IMG/VR virus record: IMGVR_UViG_3300003877_000017
Coordinates: 1 to 27,541 of that record
DNA length: 27,541 nucleotides
From: a virus
Strand: one strand, 5' to 3'
Each line of letters opens with the position of its first letter. Positions within the stretch are counted from its first letter, which is position 1. This document shows, in pieces, positions 4,416-13,841 of this stretch. The notes under the pieces are model-generated. The model was given only the letters and a program-made list of their open reading frames with translations. It searched no databases and was not told where the DNA came from. Position numbers and translations under genes: made by a program.

Positions 4416-5036
4416 TTACTCACACCACACATCACAGACATTTTTGTTTCTAAGATTTAAAAGTTCAGCGGAGGCACAAGCACCTAAAGGGCTACCTTCA
4501 AGAAAAATCACCTCGTCGCCCTCTTCAAAATCACTGCAATAACTTTGTGCTTTATACTTTTCGTCATTTATAATAAAAAACTCATCATTATAGGACACCT
4601 CAATCTCATAGCTCTCATAGCTCCTTGAAGAATAACTAGTTTTTTTTAGTTTCTTAAGATTATTATATTCAGCCAAATATTCTTTGAAACGTTGTAAAGT
4701 TTCTTTGTATGGCTGTTTTTTAGACTCCTCCGGTTCAGCATTTTTTCTAACTGGTTCTTTTGTTGGCCACTTTTGCAATCTTTCCAGCATTTGTTTTTGC
4801 ATTTCATAAAGCAATTGCCTTTGCATTTCTTCTAAGCTGAGATTGCTATACGATTCTTTGTTGGTACCAGCTGTAATAGTCTTATGTATGGGGTTGCTAG
4901 TAGGTTTATCAAGAGCATTTGTTTTAGCCTTGCCTTTGCTTGCTCCCAATACCACCTGGGTATTAAAGAAAAACTCAGCCGTAAAGCCAGATATAACCAC
5001 CAATATTACCAGTAAGAAATATTCTTTTTTATTCAC
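4416..5036 (-). CDS. Exported or membrane-anchored protein with four-cysteine C-terminal domain
   Basis: The product has 206 residues. The N-terminus (KK followed by hydrophobic residues 6-23) is a signal peptide or signal anchor. A low-complexity, Lys/Glu/Gln-rich linker (about 35-130) follows, with EEMQRQLLYEMQKQMLERLQ as a likely amphipathic helix. A compact C-terminal domain (about 140-206) has Cys167, Cys187, Cys201 and Cys205, an even number that could form two disulfides outside the cytoplasm. GGAAGGAAC before the ATG is a good ribosome site. The gene starts 16 bases after the repressor's stop on the same strand, so it is probably expressed in the lysogen as a conversion gene. Molecular function is unknown. 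Confidence 0.72.
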   Translation of the reverse strand: MNKKEYFLLVILVVISGFTAEFFFNTQVVLGASKGKAKTNALDKPTSNPIHKTITAGTNKESYSNLSLEEMQRQLLYEMQKQMLERLQKWPTKEPVRKNAEPEESKKQPYKETLQRFKEYLAEYNNLKKLKKTSYSSRSYESYEIEVSYNDEFFIINDEKYKAQSYCSDFEEGDEVIFLEGSPLGACASAELLNLRNKNVCDVWCE

Positions 5037-5052
5037 TGAATTGTTCCTTCCC

Positions 5053-5433
5053 CTATCCCGCTTTTTTCTTCAAGAATTCTTCTTTAAGTTCTTTGAGAAG
5101 TTTTTTGTCTTCAACGTTGCGCAAAACTTCGCGTCTCTCTTCTTCTGTCATGCCTTCCAGCATTATTAGAATCTTTTGCGAAACATTATCAAGGTTTTCT
5201 TTGTCTATTATATCCTTTATATCTTTTTTCTTAAACATTTCTCCTTCGCCAGTAAGGAGCCAGTCAATACTAACTTTGTAACATTTCTTTAATCGAATCA
5301 TCAGATTGCGTGATGGCTCGTTTTTGCCAGTTTCTATCTCAGCAATAACGCTTTGAGCAATCCCTAGCTCTTGCGCGAAAGCCTTTTGTGAAAGCTTAGT
5401 TGTTTCTCTCACTTGTTTAAGTCTTTTATTCAT
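5053..5433 (-). CDS. CI-like phage repressor, XRE-family HTH
   Basis: The product has 126 residues starting at the ATG at 5431-5433. The open frame extends further upstream but crosses the divergent promoter and loses protein-like composition, so the internal Met is chosen. Residues 1-65 form an XRE helix-turn-helix domain (LSQKAFAQELGIAQSVIAEIETGKNEPS) with the typical IDWLLTGEG ending. The rest is a charged helical tail (about 70-126, LEGMTEEERREVL) that probably mediates oligomerisation. There is no S24/LexA-type self-cleavage domain, so induction would need an antirepressor or another route. It is divergent from the early operon and shares a transcript with the exported-protein gene. Confidence 0.88.
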   Translation of the reverse strand: MNKRLKQVRETTKLSQKAFAQELGIAQSVIAEIETGKNEPSRNLMIRLKKCYKVSIDWLLTGEGEMFKKKDIKDIIDKENLDNVSQKILIMLEGMTEEERREVLRNVEDKKLLKELKEEFLKKKAG

Positions 5434-5460
5434 AACGCTCGGTAAATTCGATTCTTTTTG

Positions 5461-5489
5461 TTGACTTAATCGTAATATCAGATTATTAT
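5461..5489 (+). promoter_or_regulatory. Early rightward promoter
   Basis: TTGACT (5461-5466) is followed after 17 bases by TATTAT (5484-5489), close to the sigma-70 consensus with ideal spacing, and lies 60 bases before the first rightward gene. A weaker leftward candidate for the repressor (minus-strand TTGTTT at 5504-5509, TAATCT at 5480-5485) overlaps it, as expected for a lysis-lysogeny switch. Confidence 0.65.
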
Positions 5490-8142: not shown

Positions 8143-8835
8143 ATGTCAAAAATAATTGGTTATTTGCGTGTGAGTACAGAGGCTCAGGATTTGGACAAGC
8201 AAAAACACCTGTTAAGAGAACATGCGGAAAAGAACAGGTTTTTTATAGATGAATATATAGAGGTGGCTATCTCTTCACGGAAGTCAAAAGTTGAGCGGAA
8301 AATTGACGAGTTGTCAGGGAAACTAAAAAATGGGGATATGCTTCTTGTTGCTGAGCTTTCGAGGCTTGGGAGAAATATGTTTGAAACACTCGACATAATA
8401 AACGCACTTGGAGAAAAAGGCATAAAAATAGTATTTGTTCGGCAGCCGGAGCTTTCAACCAACGGCGCGCATGGGAAATTATTATTGGCCATATACAGCT
8501 ATTTTGCTGAGGCTGAGCGGGAATACATTTCAATGCGTACCAGGCAGGGCTTAGCCGCAGCAAAGGCAAATGGAAAACAGCTTGGTAGGCCAGAGGGGAG
8601 CAAAAATAAAAACGGTAGTAGATGCCGCCAGTTTTTTGACATGATTAAGGATAATTTGGCGGGCGGAGTACCCGTTAGAAGTATTCAAAAACTCATAAAC
8701 CTGCAAGCAAAAAAGCCTATCAGTTATACAGCTTTGAAGCACTACATTGACAATAGTGAGCTGCTAAGCTGGACAAAGGAAGAGGGGAAGAATAAAGAAG
8801 TTGAGTTTGAACAGTTGCAGGAGGCTAACGTTTAA
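8143..8835 (+). CDS. Serine recombinase, DNA invertase/resolvase family (Mpi-like)
   Basis: The product has 230 residues. The N-terminal resolvase domain begins MSKIIGYLRVSTEAQDLDKQ with the catalytic Ser11. Active-site arginines are in ELSRLGRN (R74, R77), and IKIVFVRQPELST plus LLLAIYSYFAEAEREYIS complete the domain. GRPEGS marks the domain end, followed by a C-terminal HTH-like region (about 160-215) longer than in the shortest invertases. It makes double-strand breaks with a 5' phosphoserine link at paired sites to invert, resolve or integrate DNA. It lies among early genes, far from the tyrosine integrase, so it probably acts on an internal or plasmid-like resolution site. Its stop overlaps the next start (TTTAATG). 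Confidence 0.88.
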   Translation: MSKIIGYLRVSTEAQDLDKQKHLLREHAEKNRFFIDEYIEVAISSRKSKVERKIDELSGKLKNGDMLLVAELSRLGRNMFETLDIINALGEKGIKIVFVRQPELSTNGAHGKLLLAIYSYFAEAEREYISMRTRQGLAAAKANGKQLGRPEGSKNKNGSRCRQFFDMIKDNLAGGVPVRSIQKLINLQAKKPISYTALKHYIDNSELLSWTKEEGKNKEVEFEQLQEANV

Positions 8836-11786
8836 TGGCAGATTTTAAAGAGACGGTACTGCTAAAACTGCGTCATAGTGATGTGTACGGGAAAGTGGAA
8901 AAGCAGAAGGCTGGAACGGGTGATTGGATTAACGGGTTGTGTCCTTTTCATGAGGACACAACCCGTTCTTTTAGTTTTGACGTACGTAGTCTTGCCTGGA
9001 AATGTCACAGTGGTTGCGGTGGCGGGGATGCCTTCGGATTTGTCATGCAGCAGTTAGGAATGGATTTTAAACAGGCTCTTGCATATCTGGCGGAGCTTGT
9101 TGGAGTGGAGAGGGTGAAGAAGAAAAAGCCAAGACCGCCTATCCCAGAAACACTTGTTGATGAACTCTGTAGCAAACTCCCCTCTGAGGCCAGAAAATAC
9201 CTTCATGATAGGGGGATATCTGAGAAAACAATCAAAAACTTTCAGCTTGGTTGGGATGACGGACGGAAACGGGTAAGTATTCCCGTTCGTGATGAAAAGG
9301 GGAACATTCTTAACATTAGATATTATAGCTGGACGCAAAAGCTAAAAATGTTTAACCATATTATCAAAATAGATAAAGACGGGAAAACAGAAGAACATAG
9401 ATATGGCTCACCGGCCCGACTTTTTAACCTGGTGGAACTGGCAGAGACTAAGAAACGCCAGGTGTATCTTGTTGAGGGAGAATTTGACTGTATGCTGCTT
9501 CGGCAGGAGAGCGGCGCTGTTGTCGTGAGTGGAACTCACGGGGCGGGAACATTCCCTTCAGGGTGGGCAAGGTATTTTGATAACAAGGACGTTGTTATTA
9601 TTTACGATTGTGACCACCCCGGCAAAAGTGCCGTAAATAAGATAGTTATTCCGGCACTGAAACACAAGGCCAAGAGCATTAAAAATGTTGTTTTGCCCTT
9701 AAAGGGAACAAGGGCCGACAAGGACATATCCGACTGGTTTGTTAAACGGGGAAAGTCATGGGAAGAATTAAAGGCTGTCATTGACGAAACGCCGGAATGG
9801 GAAGAGCCGCCAGACGAAAACGAAGAGATTATAGACCTGGACTCATTTGTGTGGATTGAGAACAAAAAATATGTTGATAAGAAAATTAGGTGTGAAATTA
9901 CAGTTTGTGGTGAGACGGAAGAGAGTTTTCATGCGGTGGAAGAGTTTATAGTTGAATCCTGCACAAAAAGAGAAAAAGGCGACTGCTGCGAATGTCCCAC
10001 TGATACACCCATGCAGCTAGAGCCAGGGGCCAGGGAGTATATAGGTTCGTGCATGTCAACAGATGTGCAGGTCACACAGGCTTTGCGCTCATATTGCTGC
10101 AAGCTCGGCCAGCGGCCAGTTATAAACATTACCAAGAGGGCAACCATTAAAGAGTTTTTCTGTCATCAAAAGCTTGTGCGAACAACCAGCACGGATACGG
10201 GTGTTGATGAAGACAGTCTTATTGATAACGGCCTTAATCAAGAATTGATTGAAAAACGTGTTTACTATATGTCCTCAAAGGATGTAAAACCCGGTCCTTA
10301 TTTGGCAGTGGGTTGGGTGAAAACACACCCGAAGACGCAGCACGTCACATTTTTAATTGAAAGCCTGGAACCTCAAGAAGAAGACTTCCAGGCGTTTAAA
10401 CTTAAAGACTGCATTCCGCTGCTTAAGCAGTACCGGAAGCTGAGTATCCCTGAAGTACTGGAAGACTTGACGGAGCATGTAACCCGTATTTATCAACGGC
10501 AGGAACTCTTATTGTCAACACTCCTTACGCTTGCATCCCCGCGGTGGCTGCCCTTTAACGGTGAAACAATTCGTGGCTGGCTATTTGTTGTTGTTATGGG
10601 TGACTCCGGCCAGGGCAAAAGTTTAGTATTTAACTCAATTTCTACCTATGCCGGAGTCGGAGACATTGTTTCCGCTCTGACAAGCTCAAGAACCGGCCTA
10701 GCCTATGCCCTGGTTGAACACAAACAAAAGGGCTGGCAGGTGAAAATAGGGCGTTATCCGGCAAACAACGGCAAGCTTCTAACCGTTGACGAAGCGCAGC
10801 ACTTACCAGAGTTTGACCTGCGCTGCTTGTCCATAGCTATCGAAAAGGGCTTTATGCAGATTGACCGCGTACAGAGCAAAGGCTTTGACTGTCAAACACG
10901 CCTCTTGCTGCTGTGTAACCCCAAGAATGACAAAATTATGGACAGTCAGACATTTGGTTGTGAAACCCTCAAAGGGGTTTTCCCAGCGCCGATTATTAGA
11001 AGGCTTGACTTTGCTGTGTTCGTCAACACAAGCGACCTGAGCGATAACCTGGAGTTTATTAATAAGCGCAAAGACCCAAACAGTAAGCCCAAGATATCAC
11101 CTGAAATGCTGCGTGCTGTTATTTACTGGGTTTGGAACCTACGGCCAAAGGATATTGAATTTCACGAAGACGCAGAGAAACGGTGTTTGTCTGAGGCGGG
11201 AAGGCTTGGCGGAATCTTTGGATTTGCAACGGATATCCCCCTTGTATCTCCGGCAGACTTCAGGCACGCATTAGCTAGAATATCAGCGGCATTTGCTGGA
11301 CTGGATATGTCGGCATCAGATGATTTTAAAAAGATGCACGTACTTGAAAGGCACGTTGTTATGGCCGTGGGGATGATTGAGAAAATATACACGCATGATA
11401 ATTGTGGTCTTGATGAGTATTCAGCGGTAATAAAATATAACACGCAATTGCATGACTACGATGTGATTAAAGCCGCCTTCCTTAAAAAGCATAATGATGG
11501 TTGTCATTCCGCCGTTCCAAGCGAAGAAGGCATATCTACCTTTATGCAGGCTGTGCAGGTTTTAAGGGTCAGTGAGTGCGTCAGGCGGGATGATTTGGCC
11601 GACCAGATAGGCATTCATAAAGATAACGTCACGGAGATAATATCCTTCCTGCGGAGGTTTAACCTGGTAGACAGTACCCGTAAGGGATATTTGAAGAAAC
11701 CTAAGTTTGTAAAGTTCTTAAGGCAGTTTATAAAAGACTGTCCTGAAATGCTTACAGAATTTACGAAGGTGAGTGTAAGTAATTGA
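8835..11786 (+). CDS. Primase-helicase: DnaG-type CHC2/TOPRIM fused to MCM-like AAA+ ATPase
   Basis: The product has 983 residues with a strong GGAGG site. The CHC2 zinc finger has Cys36 and His39 (CPFH), Cys57 and Cys61 (CHSGCG). A TOPRIM domain follows with VEGE (E214, E216) and YDCD (D258, D260). The middle region (about 340-540) includes a cysteine cluster (ESC...CCEC, 376-387) suggesting a second zinc site, like an MCM N-terminal domain. The AAA+ motor has Walker A GDSGQGKS (589-596), Walker B LLTVDEAQ (648-655), a sensor LLLCNPKN (691-698) and an arginine-finger-like IIRRLD (720-725). The C-terminus (about 915-970) looks like a winged helix. It should unwind DNA and make primers for phage replication. 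The family call for the motor is by motif only. Confidence 0.85.
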   Translation: MADFKETVLLKLRHSDVYGKVEKQKAGTGDWINGLCPFHEDTTRSFSFDVRSLAWKCHSGCGGGDAFGFVMQQLGMDFKQALAYLAELVGVERVKKKKPRPPIPETLVDELCSKLPSEARKYLHDRGISEKTIKNFQLGWDDGRKRVSIPVRDEKGNILNIRYYSWTQKLKMFNHIIKIDKDGKTEEHRYGSPARLFNLVELAETKKRQVYLVEGEFDCMLLRQESGAVVVSGTHGAGTFPSGWARYFDNKDVVIIYDCDHPGKSAVNKIVIPALKHKAKSIKNVVLPLKGTRADKDISDWFVKRGKSWEELKAVIDETPEWEEPPDENEEIIDLDSFVWIENKKYVDKKIRCEITVCGETEESFHAVEEFIVESCTKREKGDCCECPTDTPMQLEPGAREYIGSCMSTDVQVTQALRSYCCKLGQRPVINITKRATIKEFFCHQKLVRTTSTDTGVDEDSLIDNGLNQELIEKRVYYMSSKDVKPGPYLAVGWVKTHPKTQHVTFLIESLEPQEEDFQAFKLKDCIPLLKQYRKLSIPEVLEDLTEHVTRIYQRQELLLSTLLTLASPRWLPFNGETIRGWLFVVVMGDSGQGKSLVFNSISTYAGVGDIVSALTSSRTGLAYALVEHKQKGWQVKIGRYPANNGKLLTVDEAQHLPEFDLRCLSIAIEKGFMQIDRVQSKGFDCQTRLLLLCNPKNDKIMDSQTFGCETLKGVFPAPIIRRLDFAVFVNTSDLSDNLEFINKRKDPNSKPKISPEMLRAVIYWVWNLRPKDIEFHEDAEKRCLSEAGRLGGIFGFATDIPLVSPADFRHALARISAAFAGLDMSASDDFKKMHVLERHVVMAVGMIEKIYTHDNCGLDEYSAVIKYNTQLHDYDVIKAAFLKKHNDGCHSAVPSEEGISTFMQAVQVLRVSECVRRDDLADQIGIHKDNVTEIISFLRRFNLVDSTRKGYLKKPKFVKFLRQFIKDCPEMLTEFTKVSVSN

Positions 11787-11974
11787 TAATAATAGACGAT
11801 ACTGCAAATGCAGCAATGACTCACCTGCGTAAATCAAAAAAAGGCTCCACCTATATAATTACGTTGACAACGTAAATTTAGGGGTGAAAGCAATTCCCAG
11901 ATTACGAAGGTGAGTCATTGAGATAATTAATATTATTCTTAACAAAAACAATGCTTTAAACTCACCTTCGTAAA
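11760..11974. repeat. Nested, exactly symmetric inverted-repeat array; candidate replication origin
   Basis: A 15-bp motif (TTTACGAAGGTGAGT) occurs four times: 11760-11774 (+), 11819-11833 (-), 11901-11915 (+) and 11960-11974 (-), with at most one or two differences. The outer pair, the inner pair (extended to 11814-11834 and 11900-11920) and a central palindrome TTACGTTGACAACGTAA (11859-11875) are all centred on base 11867. Both outer-to-inner gaps are 44 bases. The array starts inside the last codons of the primase-helicase gene and ends 19 bases before the next gene. Symmetry plus position suggests an origin or initiator/regulator site. Confidence 0.8.
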
Positions 11975-11993
11975 ATAGCAAAATAGGCTAAAA

Positions 11994-12323
11994 ATGGATT
12001 TTAACGATATATTTGCAAAAAGTGAAGAAAAAGTAGGTAAGTGTGTAAAACAAGAAGAGGAAAAGAAGGAAGAGAAAGACGCAATTAAATATGCTGTTTT
12101 TTCCTTCCCTTTCCTTAAAGAAAAAATAGCGGTTGTGTACGTAAAAGCATACTGGAAAGAAGCAAAAGAAAGATTCCCTCAATTAGTCCTATTTACGAGC
12201 TTAGAAATGCAGGAAATACTCAATGCTTGTCAAAATATAAACAAGCAGGAAAGAGAAGAATTACTAAAAAAGGTTTATTTCATCAAGAAAGAGTTTGGAG
12301 GTTATATTATACCCAAGACATAG
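11994..12323 (+). CDS. Early protein of unknown function
   Basis: The product has 109 residues. An acidic/basic linker (about 10-28, EEKVGKCVKQEEEKKEEKD) is followed by a compact domain, AVFSFPFLKEKIAVVYVKAY then WKEAKERFPQLVLFTSLEMQ, and a helical end. No strong ribosome site is seen. The fourth copy of the 15-bp motif ends 19 bases before the ATG, so its product or the replication protein may regulate it. I do not recognise the family. Confidence 0.6.
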   Translation: MDFNDIFAKSEEKVGKCVKQEEEKKEEKDAIKYAVFSFPFLKEKIAVVYVKAYWKEAKERFPQLVLFTSLEMQEILNACQNINKQEREELLKKVYFIKKEFGGYIIPKT

Positions 12324-12750: not shown

Positions 12751-13108
12751 TCCCCCGAATCCCCCATGTTTTTTTTTAATCTGTAAAGAAAGAATGTCTA
12801 AATCCAGTTTTTGAAGCCTTTTATCGCTATATACAGTATATGTTTACTGCCGTTTTATTATCCTGTTTTTCATCAATAAAGCAGGAAGAAACAGAAAAAT
12901 ATACATAGTTGTGTCGATATTTTGCCGGAAATTACCGGAATTGTGCTTTTTTAGGGTTTTTAATGTCCTTTGACCTCTGCATGTGTCAAACAAAACAAGG
13001 CGTTAAAGTCAGTATGGGCAAAATCAGATAAGCTATTGAAATTATTTATCGGAAGGAAATAACCGCCAGCTCTTATAAATACCTCAAAAGGCATTTTTTG
13101 ACCGCAAT

Positions 13109-13216
13109 TCACTAAAGAAACCATCGTTATTTTAGTGCTGTCCTCACTAAAATACTCACGACTACTTTAGTGAGTATCGGGACATAAAAAAGAATAAGTT
13201 GACGTTATTTTAGTGA
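13109..13216. repeat. Array of five TTTAGTGA sites in alternating orientation
   Basis: TTTAGTG(A) or its complement occurs at 13109-13116 (-), 13131-13137 (+, last base C), 13144-13151 (-), 13166-13173 (+) and 13209-13216 (+). They build two hairpins: ATTTTAGTG/CACTAAAAT (13129-13153, 7-base loop) and ATACTCAC/GTGAGTAT (13152-13177). CGTTATTTTAGTG occurs twice. These are likely regulator-binding sites just before the promoter candidate. Confidence 0.65.
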
Positions 13217-13233
13217 ACTTGGAAACAGGGCAT

Positions 13234-13262
13234 TTGACAACCTGGAAAAACGGAAGTATCTA
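13234..13262 (+). promoter_or_regulatory. Candidate late promoter
   Basis: TTGACA (13234-13239) is followed after 17 bases by TATCTA (13257-13262). The last TTTAGTGA site ends 17 bases before the -35 box. It would give a leader of about 570 bases before the small terminase. Confidence 0.4.
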
Positions 13263-13538
13263 ATATTTTTACAAAATTTATACAGAATCAATTTGTTTAT
13301 AGTGGGATTTCTACGTCCTGAATATAGAATAGCTTTGTTCTTAATATATTATCTTGTTGTTATATAAGGGGTTATAGTTTTGAATTGTGTTAAGGGTTTA
13401 GTTTTAGGAAGAGAGGAAAGCTGTCTTTCTTGTATTAGAGAGAGAAAGTATTAGTTATAAGTGTTTGTTTTTAAAGGGATTGATATTGTGTTAATGGTTT
13501 AAATTGTTGATATTATTGCTATTTATCCCTTTTCAGTA

Positions 13539-13637: not shown

Positions 13638-13841
13638 CTCTTAAAGGCCATGTTTAACGAATGGGGCGCGGGAAAGTCACCTAGTTAATAAGCCTCGCGC
13701 GAACAAATTGTATTTTTTCAGATAATAAGATGGCGACAGTTAGCACCCCTCTTAAAGGCAACGTTTGGCGAATGGGGCGCGGGGAAGTTCCAATATTAAA
13801 ACTCGCGCGAATCATTGTAATTTTTCAGGTAATAAAATGGC
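13638..13841. repeat. Imperfect tandem leader repeat before the small terminase (13638-13734 and 13749-13841)
   Basis: Both copies run CTCTTAAAGGC, GTTT, CGAATGGGGCGCGGG, CTCGCGCGAA, TTTTTCAG, TAATAA and end in ATGGC. In each, GCGCGGG can pair with CTCGCGC (one G-T pair) to form a 7-bp hairpin. The ATG of copy 2 is the real start of the small terminase; the ATG of copy 1 opens only a spurious frame. It is a candidate pac/cos recognition site or translational control element. Confidence 0.75.

Follow-up and report, generated by a model that had tools for sequence, protein, structure and literature searches.

What is the 215-bp symmetric element that begins at the end of a primase-MCM gene in this viral DNA, and is the neighbouring enzyme the protein that recognises it? 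The window analysed here is the whole viral record of 27,541 bases. A sequence-only reading had described nested repeats centred on base 11867, with two equal gaps of 44 bases, and had suggested that the primase-MCM or a partner protein loads there. We located the same centre, as the outer pair (11760-11774 / 11960-11974, 15 bp perfect, extended to 26 nt at 85%), the inner pair (11814-11832 / 11902-11920, 19 nt with a 95% match) and the palindrome at 11859-11875 all share an axis at 11867.0, and both gaps measured 44. The element does begin in the last codons of the primase-MCM gene, with site A overlapping these codons and the gene ending at 11786. The description of the two gap sequences as not clearly related was wrong, however, as they are weakly related by the dyad (20/44, p = 0.02 in the window).

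A better description of the nested pairs is that a single site occurs four times, in the order -> <- -> <- (sites A to D), arranged around a partly symmetric spacer of ~75 bp (Table 1). The four arms are copies of one ~12-bp motif, TTACGAAGGTGAGT, with a single mismatch in site B. This motif occurs twice forward and twice in reverse in the 27,541-base record and nowhere else in it (control 0). When complementary runs were summed about every possible axis, axis 11867 was the top dyad of the contig and scored 26, whereas the next axis reached 11 and a shuffled sequence 7; no axis scored above 11 in 18 unrelated viral contigs (162.5 kb). The four-site score of the window was 69/72, while shuffles reached at most 48. 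The second-best dyad axis of the contig (13141, score 11) lies within a different region, at 13085-13270, where several TTTAGTGA / TCACTAAA copies in both orientations are found in a 1-kb non-coding stretch. A regulator may have its operators here, or the copies may form a second control site. A 40-nt direct repeat (13638-13677 and 13749-13788, 88%) is also present in non-coding DNA ahead of the terminase region.

Table 1 Coordinates of the array, its parts and the adjoining genes in the window.
Feature	Position	Strand	Remarks
Toprim primase - MCM AAA+ helicase - winged-helix gene, 983 aa, proposed initiator	8835..11786	+	Pfam, PDB profile, Foldseek
Predicted C-terminal winged helix, residues ~902-968	11538..11738	+	AF2 model, helix-helix-helix-wing, local pLDDT about 82-86
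Recognition helix, residues 929-941	11619-11657	+	AF2 model; co-variation with site sequence
Outer site A (->)	11760..11774	+	Overlaps last codons of primase gene
Left gap, 44 bp	11775..11818		Weak mirror relation to right gap, 20/44, p 0.02
Inner site B (<-)	about 11814..11833	-	One mismatch to consensus
A-tract CAAAAAAA	11835..11842	+	Left side of spacer only; kept in L030, L031, L032, L034, L036
CACC, left half-spacer	11848..11851	-	Mirror of GGTG 11883-11886 about 11867
Central palindrome TTACGTTGACAACGTAA	11859..11875		On dyad axis 11867
GGTG, right half-spacer	11883..11886	+	Mirror of CACC 11848-11851
Inner site C (->)	about 11901..11920	+	Array copy
Right gap, 44 bp	11916..11959		Weak mirror relation to left gap
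Outer site D (<-)	11960..11974	-	Array copy
Small protein gene, 109 aa	11994..12323	+	Homologues after array in most relatives; fold unrecognised

We scanned for relatives, with either the protein or a seven-homologue alignment as query, and obtained them from IMG/VR and MAG contigs; the MAG sources were Planctomycetota (including a Kuenenia), Acidobacteriota and others. Using a four-site search that maximises site similarity and leaves the gaps free, we identified an array of the same order after the primase-MCM gene in 11 relatives (L030, L031, L032, L033, L034, L035, L036, L037, L039, L043 and L045; L044 and L072 are near-identical copies of L033). The primase-MCM proteins of these 11 are about 47–53% identical, and as L033, L045, L034, L036, L030 and L031 are close in protein sequence, we counted about eight independent lineages. 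Four-site scores were 51–72/72, mostly far above shuffles (about 50 or less). The weakest alone was L030 (51/72, with shuffles up to 52), which rests on its close relative L031 at 61/72. In L043, the version from a Kuenenia prophage, all four sites are perfect. Relatives with this primase thus keep the arrangement, spacing and symmetry of the sites beside the gene, which was the main check that the sequence-only reading had proposed, and primase-MCM is the only gene linked to the array in all loci.

There were also loci that departed from this pattern. An array was not found beside the gene in L038, L040, L048, L061, L062, L077, L078 or L079, and a strong dyad was absent from the tested stretches of L077, L078 and L079. 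A four-site match at 11678 of L038 was rejected, as it is a coding tandem repeat. L047 retains the central module and, of the four sites, B and C alone (75 nt apart). In L041 (1176-1900), the gene is followed by an enlarged, rearranged array of many GGGTAxGGTTC-like sites in both orientations and in non-standard geometry. L034 contains an extra stretch between the array and the next gene (5370-5480), with a degenerate further copy, GGGGGGCAGGTTTTAAATTC.

An exact 16-mer search of IMG/VR gave 18 matches, compared to ~20 expected by chance, and broad genome searches found few further homologues, all distant. In Weizmannia phage Youna2, Bacillus phage BSP7 and Microbacterium phage Hiddenleaf, where the homologous protein is ~26% identical, the strongest dyad of the locus is beside the gene, in each case intergenic and upstream of it. 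The Youna2 axis scored 29 (next 7), with three nested pairs on 2143.5; that of BSP7 scored 17 (next 8) and that of Hiddenleaf 12 (next 8), with inverted CCCACAAT repeats. The position of the dyad is therefore not fixed, considering that in Youna2 and BSP7 it is upstream of the gene with one HTH gene between.

Across the window and the 11 relatives with the array, the letters of the sites change and their geometry is kept. Sites agree at 10.2/12 positions within a genome and at 6.9/12 between genomes. Raw A-B and C-D gaps are equal in nine genomes (48/48, 39/39, 43/43, 40/40, 43/43, 53/53, 51/51, 43/43 and 43/43) and exactly 10 bp apart in the other three (47/37, 53/43 and 49/39), where the extra 10 bp sits only in the left arm. 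In a common register (for the window, L030 and L035 the site registers were chosen by eye), the gaps are 42–44 or 53 and the spacer is 73–76, so the spacing shifts by one helical turn. The gaps of the relatives have a patch in common near their middle (about AAGGACTTA), and the extra turn is always on the side of this patch that faces the outer site. Such steps are as expected for a protein on duplex DNA.

The symmetry extends beyond the sites themselves. Gap-side flanks agree at 4.7/10 between A and the reverse complement of D and at 4.3/10 between C and the reverse complement of B, whereas outer and inner flanks agree with one another at 1.6–2.6/10 (chance 2.5). As outer flanks match outer and inner match inner, but not across, the axis is a real two-fold one with two kinds of position. 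Left and right gaps are mirror-related at p <= 0.02 in 11/12 genomes (p <= 0.012 in 10/11 relatives). In the spacer, CAC(CC) and (GG)GTG are mirrored around a central palindrome of varying sequence: CCACCC/GGGTGG are at matching symmetric positions in L033, L045 and L072, and relatives have other central palindromes, such as ACCCATGCATGGGT in L043. Taken genome by genome, the symmetry of the spacer reaches significance in about half.

The 983-aa product of the adjoining gene matched Zn_ribbon_DnaG (6e-13), MCM (2.9e-9, a P-loop domain) and Toprim_2 (0.0015) in Pfam, and its C-terminal half matched archaeal MCM among PDB profiles (3.6e-17) and MCM by Foldseek (E 1e-13). Similarity of the recognition helix in the predicted winged helix (Table 1) predicted site similarity after whole-protein similarity was removed (partial Mantel r 0.65, p 0.0002, n = 12 loci), with the qualification that the permutation removes shared ancestry only partly. 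Helices with E-T pair with TCAGGTT sites (6 loci) and helices with D-T-V-K pair with GCARGTT/GCGGGTT sites (3 loci). L045 has the TCAGGTT site and the E-T helix, like L037/L039 and not like the closer L030/L031, while the rest of its fragment is 86–88% identical to L030/L031 and 76–77% identical to L037/L039. By these comparisons, the recognition helix appears to track the site sequence beyond overall relatedness. Within the zinc-ribbon coding part of the same gene there is a perfect 15-bp stem with a 7-nt loop (8931-8967); no stem of more than 7 bp was found at the matching place in relatives.

We consider that the 215-bp element is probably the origin from which this phage family replicates, with the adjoining primase-MCM as the protein that recognises it. 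In this reading the enzyme would bind every ~12-bp site through its C-terminal winged helix. Sites A and B, whose centres are about 55 bp apart, would form one arm and assemble one complex, and the mirror arm of C and D would assemble a second, so that the two meet head to head across axis 11867. Strands would then open in the ~75-bp spacer, where the A-tract and the central palindrome lie, and two hexamers may start bidirectional replication there, with forks leaving the spacer in both directions. We put forward a further-reaching version only tentatively, as one that is possible but rather doubtful: a bacterial-virus MCM fused to a primase would find its own two-fold origin via the winged helix and load as a loader-free head-to-head double hexamer, with helix and four sites drifting together and the geometry fixed in one-turn steps. 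If the origin assignment is right, this is a concrete candidate origin for a widespread, unstudied class of phage primase-MCM proteins, and the strongest dyad adjoining a primase-MCM gene would serve as a rule to locate it in others. The natural variants (changed sites, changed helices and one-turn insertions) form a set for decoding how a winged helix reads DNA.

The interpretation offered by the sequence-only reading is, as a whole, partly supported. The conserved array beside the gene fits loading of the primase-MCM, but the 109-aa protein encoded after the array, also considered there as a binder, is an unlikely one because its conserved domain is lost in L033, L034, L036 and L072 with the array intact. 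We rejected it as the site binder, as its fold is unrecognised and the domain is dispensable. In these four loci the MNLRDLA N-terminus is kept and is followed by an unrelated ~170-aa sequence, a module swap right behind the array. A change of GC skew near 11867 had also been anticipated and none was seen; as skew here follows the gene strand, this is weak evidence against a bidirectional origin. The loci in which the array is missing, reduced or rearranged, and the upstream dyads of Youna2 and BSP7, also count against the origin reading.

Several known systems resemble this locus in part. On the features that can be computed from sequences and structure models, it would be placed with the self-loading initiators (SaPI Rep / P4 alpha): an AAA+ replicative helicase (MCM domain) is encoded beside the array, a C-terminal DNA-binding domain is predicted (winged helix, AlphaFold2), and the repeated sites adjoin the gene and differ with each initiator. 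SaPI Rep, like SCCmec Cch2 a self-loading initiator helicase of staphylococcal islands, has iterons directly downstream of its own gene that are recognised by its C-terminal domain, apparently by two hexamers (PMC7581432). The present locus is like SaPI Rep/ori and SCCmec Cch2 with its putative ori in having a helicase gene, a C-terminal DNA-binding domain (here predicted) and a repeat-containing region directly downstream. It is unlike both in that a Toprim-type primase is fused and the helicase is of the MCM family, and unlike the iteron run of SaPI Rep in that four sites form a strict two-fold array with one-turn steps. P4 alpha, as far as PMC4234260 (going back to Ziegelin and Lanka 1995 and Yeo 2002) and PMC7145576 describe it, joins a Toprim-type primase, a helicase and a C-terminal winged helix in one chain and uses short repeated sites, and is alike in these respects. 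The present locus differs from P4 alpha as described in those accounts in its helicase, whose profile and fold are MCM-like, and in its four-site dyad.

Cellular MCMs are loaded by ORC/Cdc6, and double-hexamer loading is usually studied with ORC and Cdc6. To our knowledge, no cellular MCM recognises a sequence adjoining the gene that encodes it. The viral protein resembles archaeal and eukaryotic MCM in its MCM-like ATPase core and C-terminal winged helix, and would differ in recognising its own site beside its own gene, without ORC/Cdc6. If this is true, a single protein that loads as a double hexamer on a 215-bp site of its own would offer a minimal model of MCM loading. SV40 T antigen and papillomavirus E1 are origin-binding helicases that use symmetric paired sites and form a double hexamer. 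The symmetric paired sites are shared with the present locus, where the double hexamer is a proposal; T antigen and E1, in contrast, bind via an N-terminal domain and are unrelated in sequence. Their origin recognition is mentioned in PMC7581432.

The origin of pRN1 lies directly downstream of a primase-helicase-winged-helix gene, with its structure kept and its sequence not (PMC4234260), and the region downstream of the present gene is like that of pRN1 ORF904 in both respects. A comparable origin read by its structure would require A to pair with D and B with C in a long, imperfect hairpin extruded from the region, and the enzyme to read the folded single strand as proposed for pRN1. As single-stranded DNA the region does fold, at -43.3 kcal/mol compared to -15.7 for shuffles (z -8.9, with the dyad present in relatives), arms A/D and B/C match beyond the common site, and pRN1 and phage BIP-1 provide precedent. 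However, such a stem needs only A to match the reverse complement of D and B that of C, yet all four sites are one sequence (A and C are alike at 10/12). In three genomes, the extra 10 bp of the left arm would also unbalance the hairpin, but leave helical phasing unaffected. The pRN1 origin is a stem-loop of ~100 nt without iterons, in which structure alone is read, whereas here one site occurs four times on duplex DNA; and pRN1 has an archaeo-eukaryotic primase and an SF3 helicase, whereas a Toprim/Zn_ribbon_DnaG primase and MCM are found here. With iterons as its sites and an enzyme built of different domains, this is not a pRN1-type origin, and we regard a structure-read origin in general as improbable.

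Only slightly below this in likelihood is a complex operator, at which a repressor or the initiator would bind the sites and, through a DNA loop, control the small downstream gene or the replication operon. The helical spacing is equally suited to such a loop, autoregulation is common among initiators, and the array ends 2–53 bp ahead of the next start codon in 11/12 loci, for which reason we keep in view that an operator role may exist on top of the origin role. Against an operator in place of an origin, promoter-like sequences in 11600-12100 were at chance level (3 compared to 1.9 +/- 1.4, with none spanning the axis on the + strand), as was the promoter/terminator scan in general, the body of the downstream gene is replaced in four loci with the array kept, and no regulator gene is common to all loci. 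A recombination or packaging site is very improbable. In the window, an invertase-like serine recombinase gene (8143-8835) is directly upstream of the primase gene, as would suit a res or inversion site, and a terminase 2.3 kb downstream would suit pac/cos; L043 also has a serine recombinase, unrelated and of the HTH-first type (4620-5333), 640 bp upstream of its primase gene. Such genes are thus upstream in 2/12 loci, neither recombinase has a relative beside the gene in other loci, the array is conserved in genomes lacking one, and the distance between its arms is too great for the paired half-sites of a resolvase. A serine-recombinase site was therefore rejected, as the array is not linked to a recombinase across loci, and linkage to the terminase was not seen either. 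The least probable reading is a centromere-like partition site used by an extrachromosomal prophage: short sites of defined orientation serve this purpose elsewhere in arrays and a small protein without known function is nearby, but its domain is dispensable, no ParA/ParB-type gene was found adjoining the array, and two-fold symmetry with one-turn spacing about one centre is not typical of such sites.

An RNA element was also considered. No Rfam family matches the window. Relative to site A, the primase stop codon is found between 8 bp ahead of it and 71 bp beyond its start, and most genomes therefore translate the left arm. As ribosomes would cross it, this argues against an RNA element, which we rejected.

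Some further genes were observed near the array in single relatives. A SpoVG-family gene (9545-9847, Pfam 3e-8) is behind the small gene in L045, and a protein similar to it by eye is encoded in the same place in L032 (9397-9687). L032 also carries a Mom-family DNA modification gene upstream of the primase gene (4643-5392, Pfam 3e-45).
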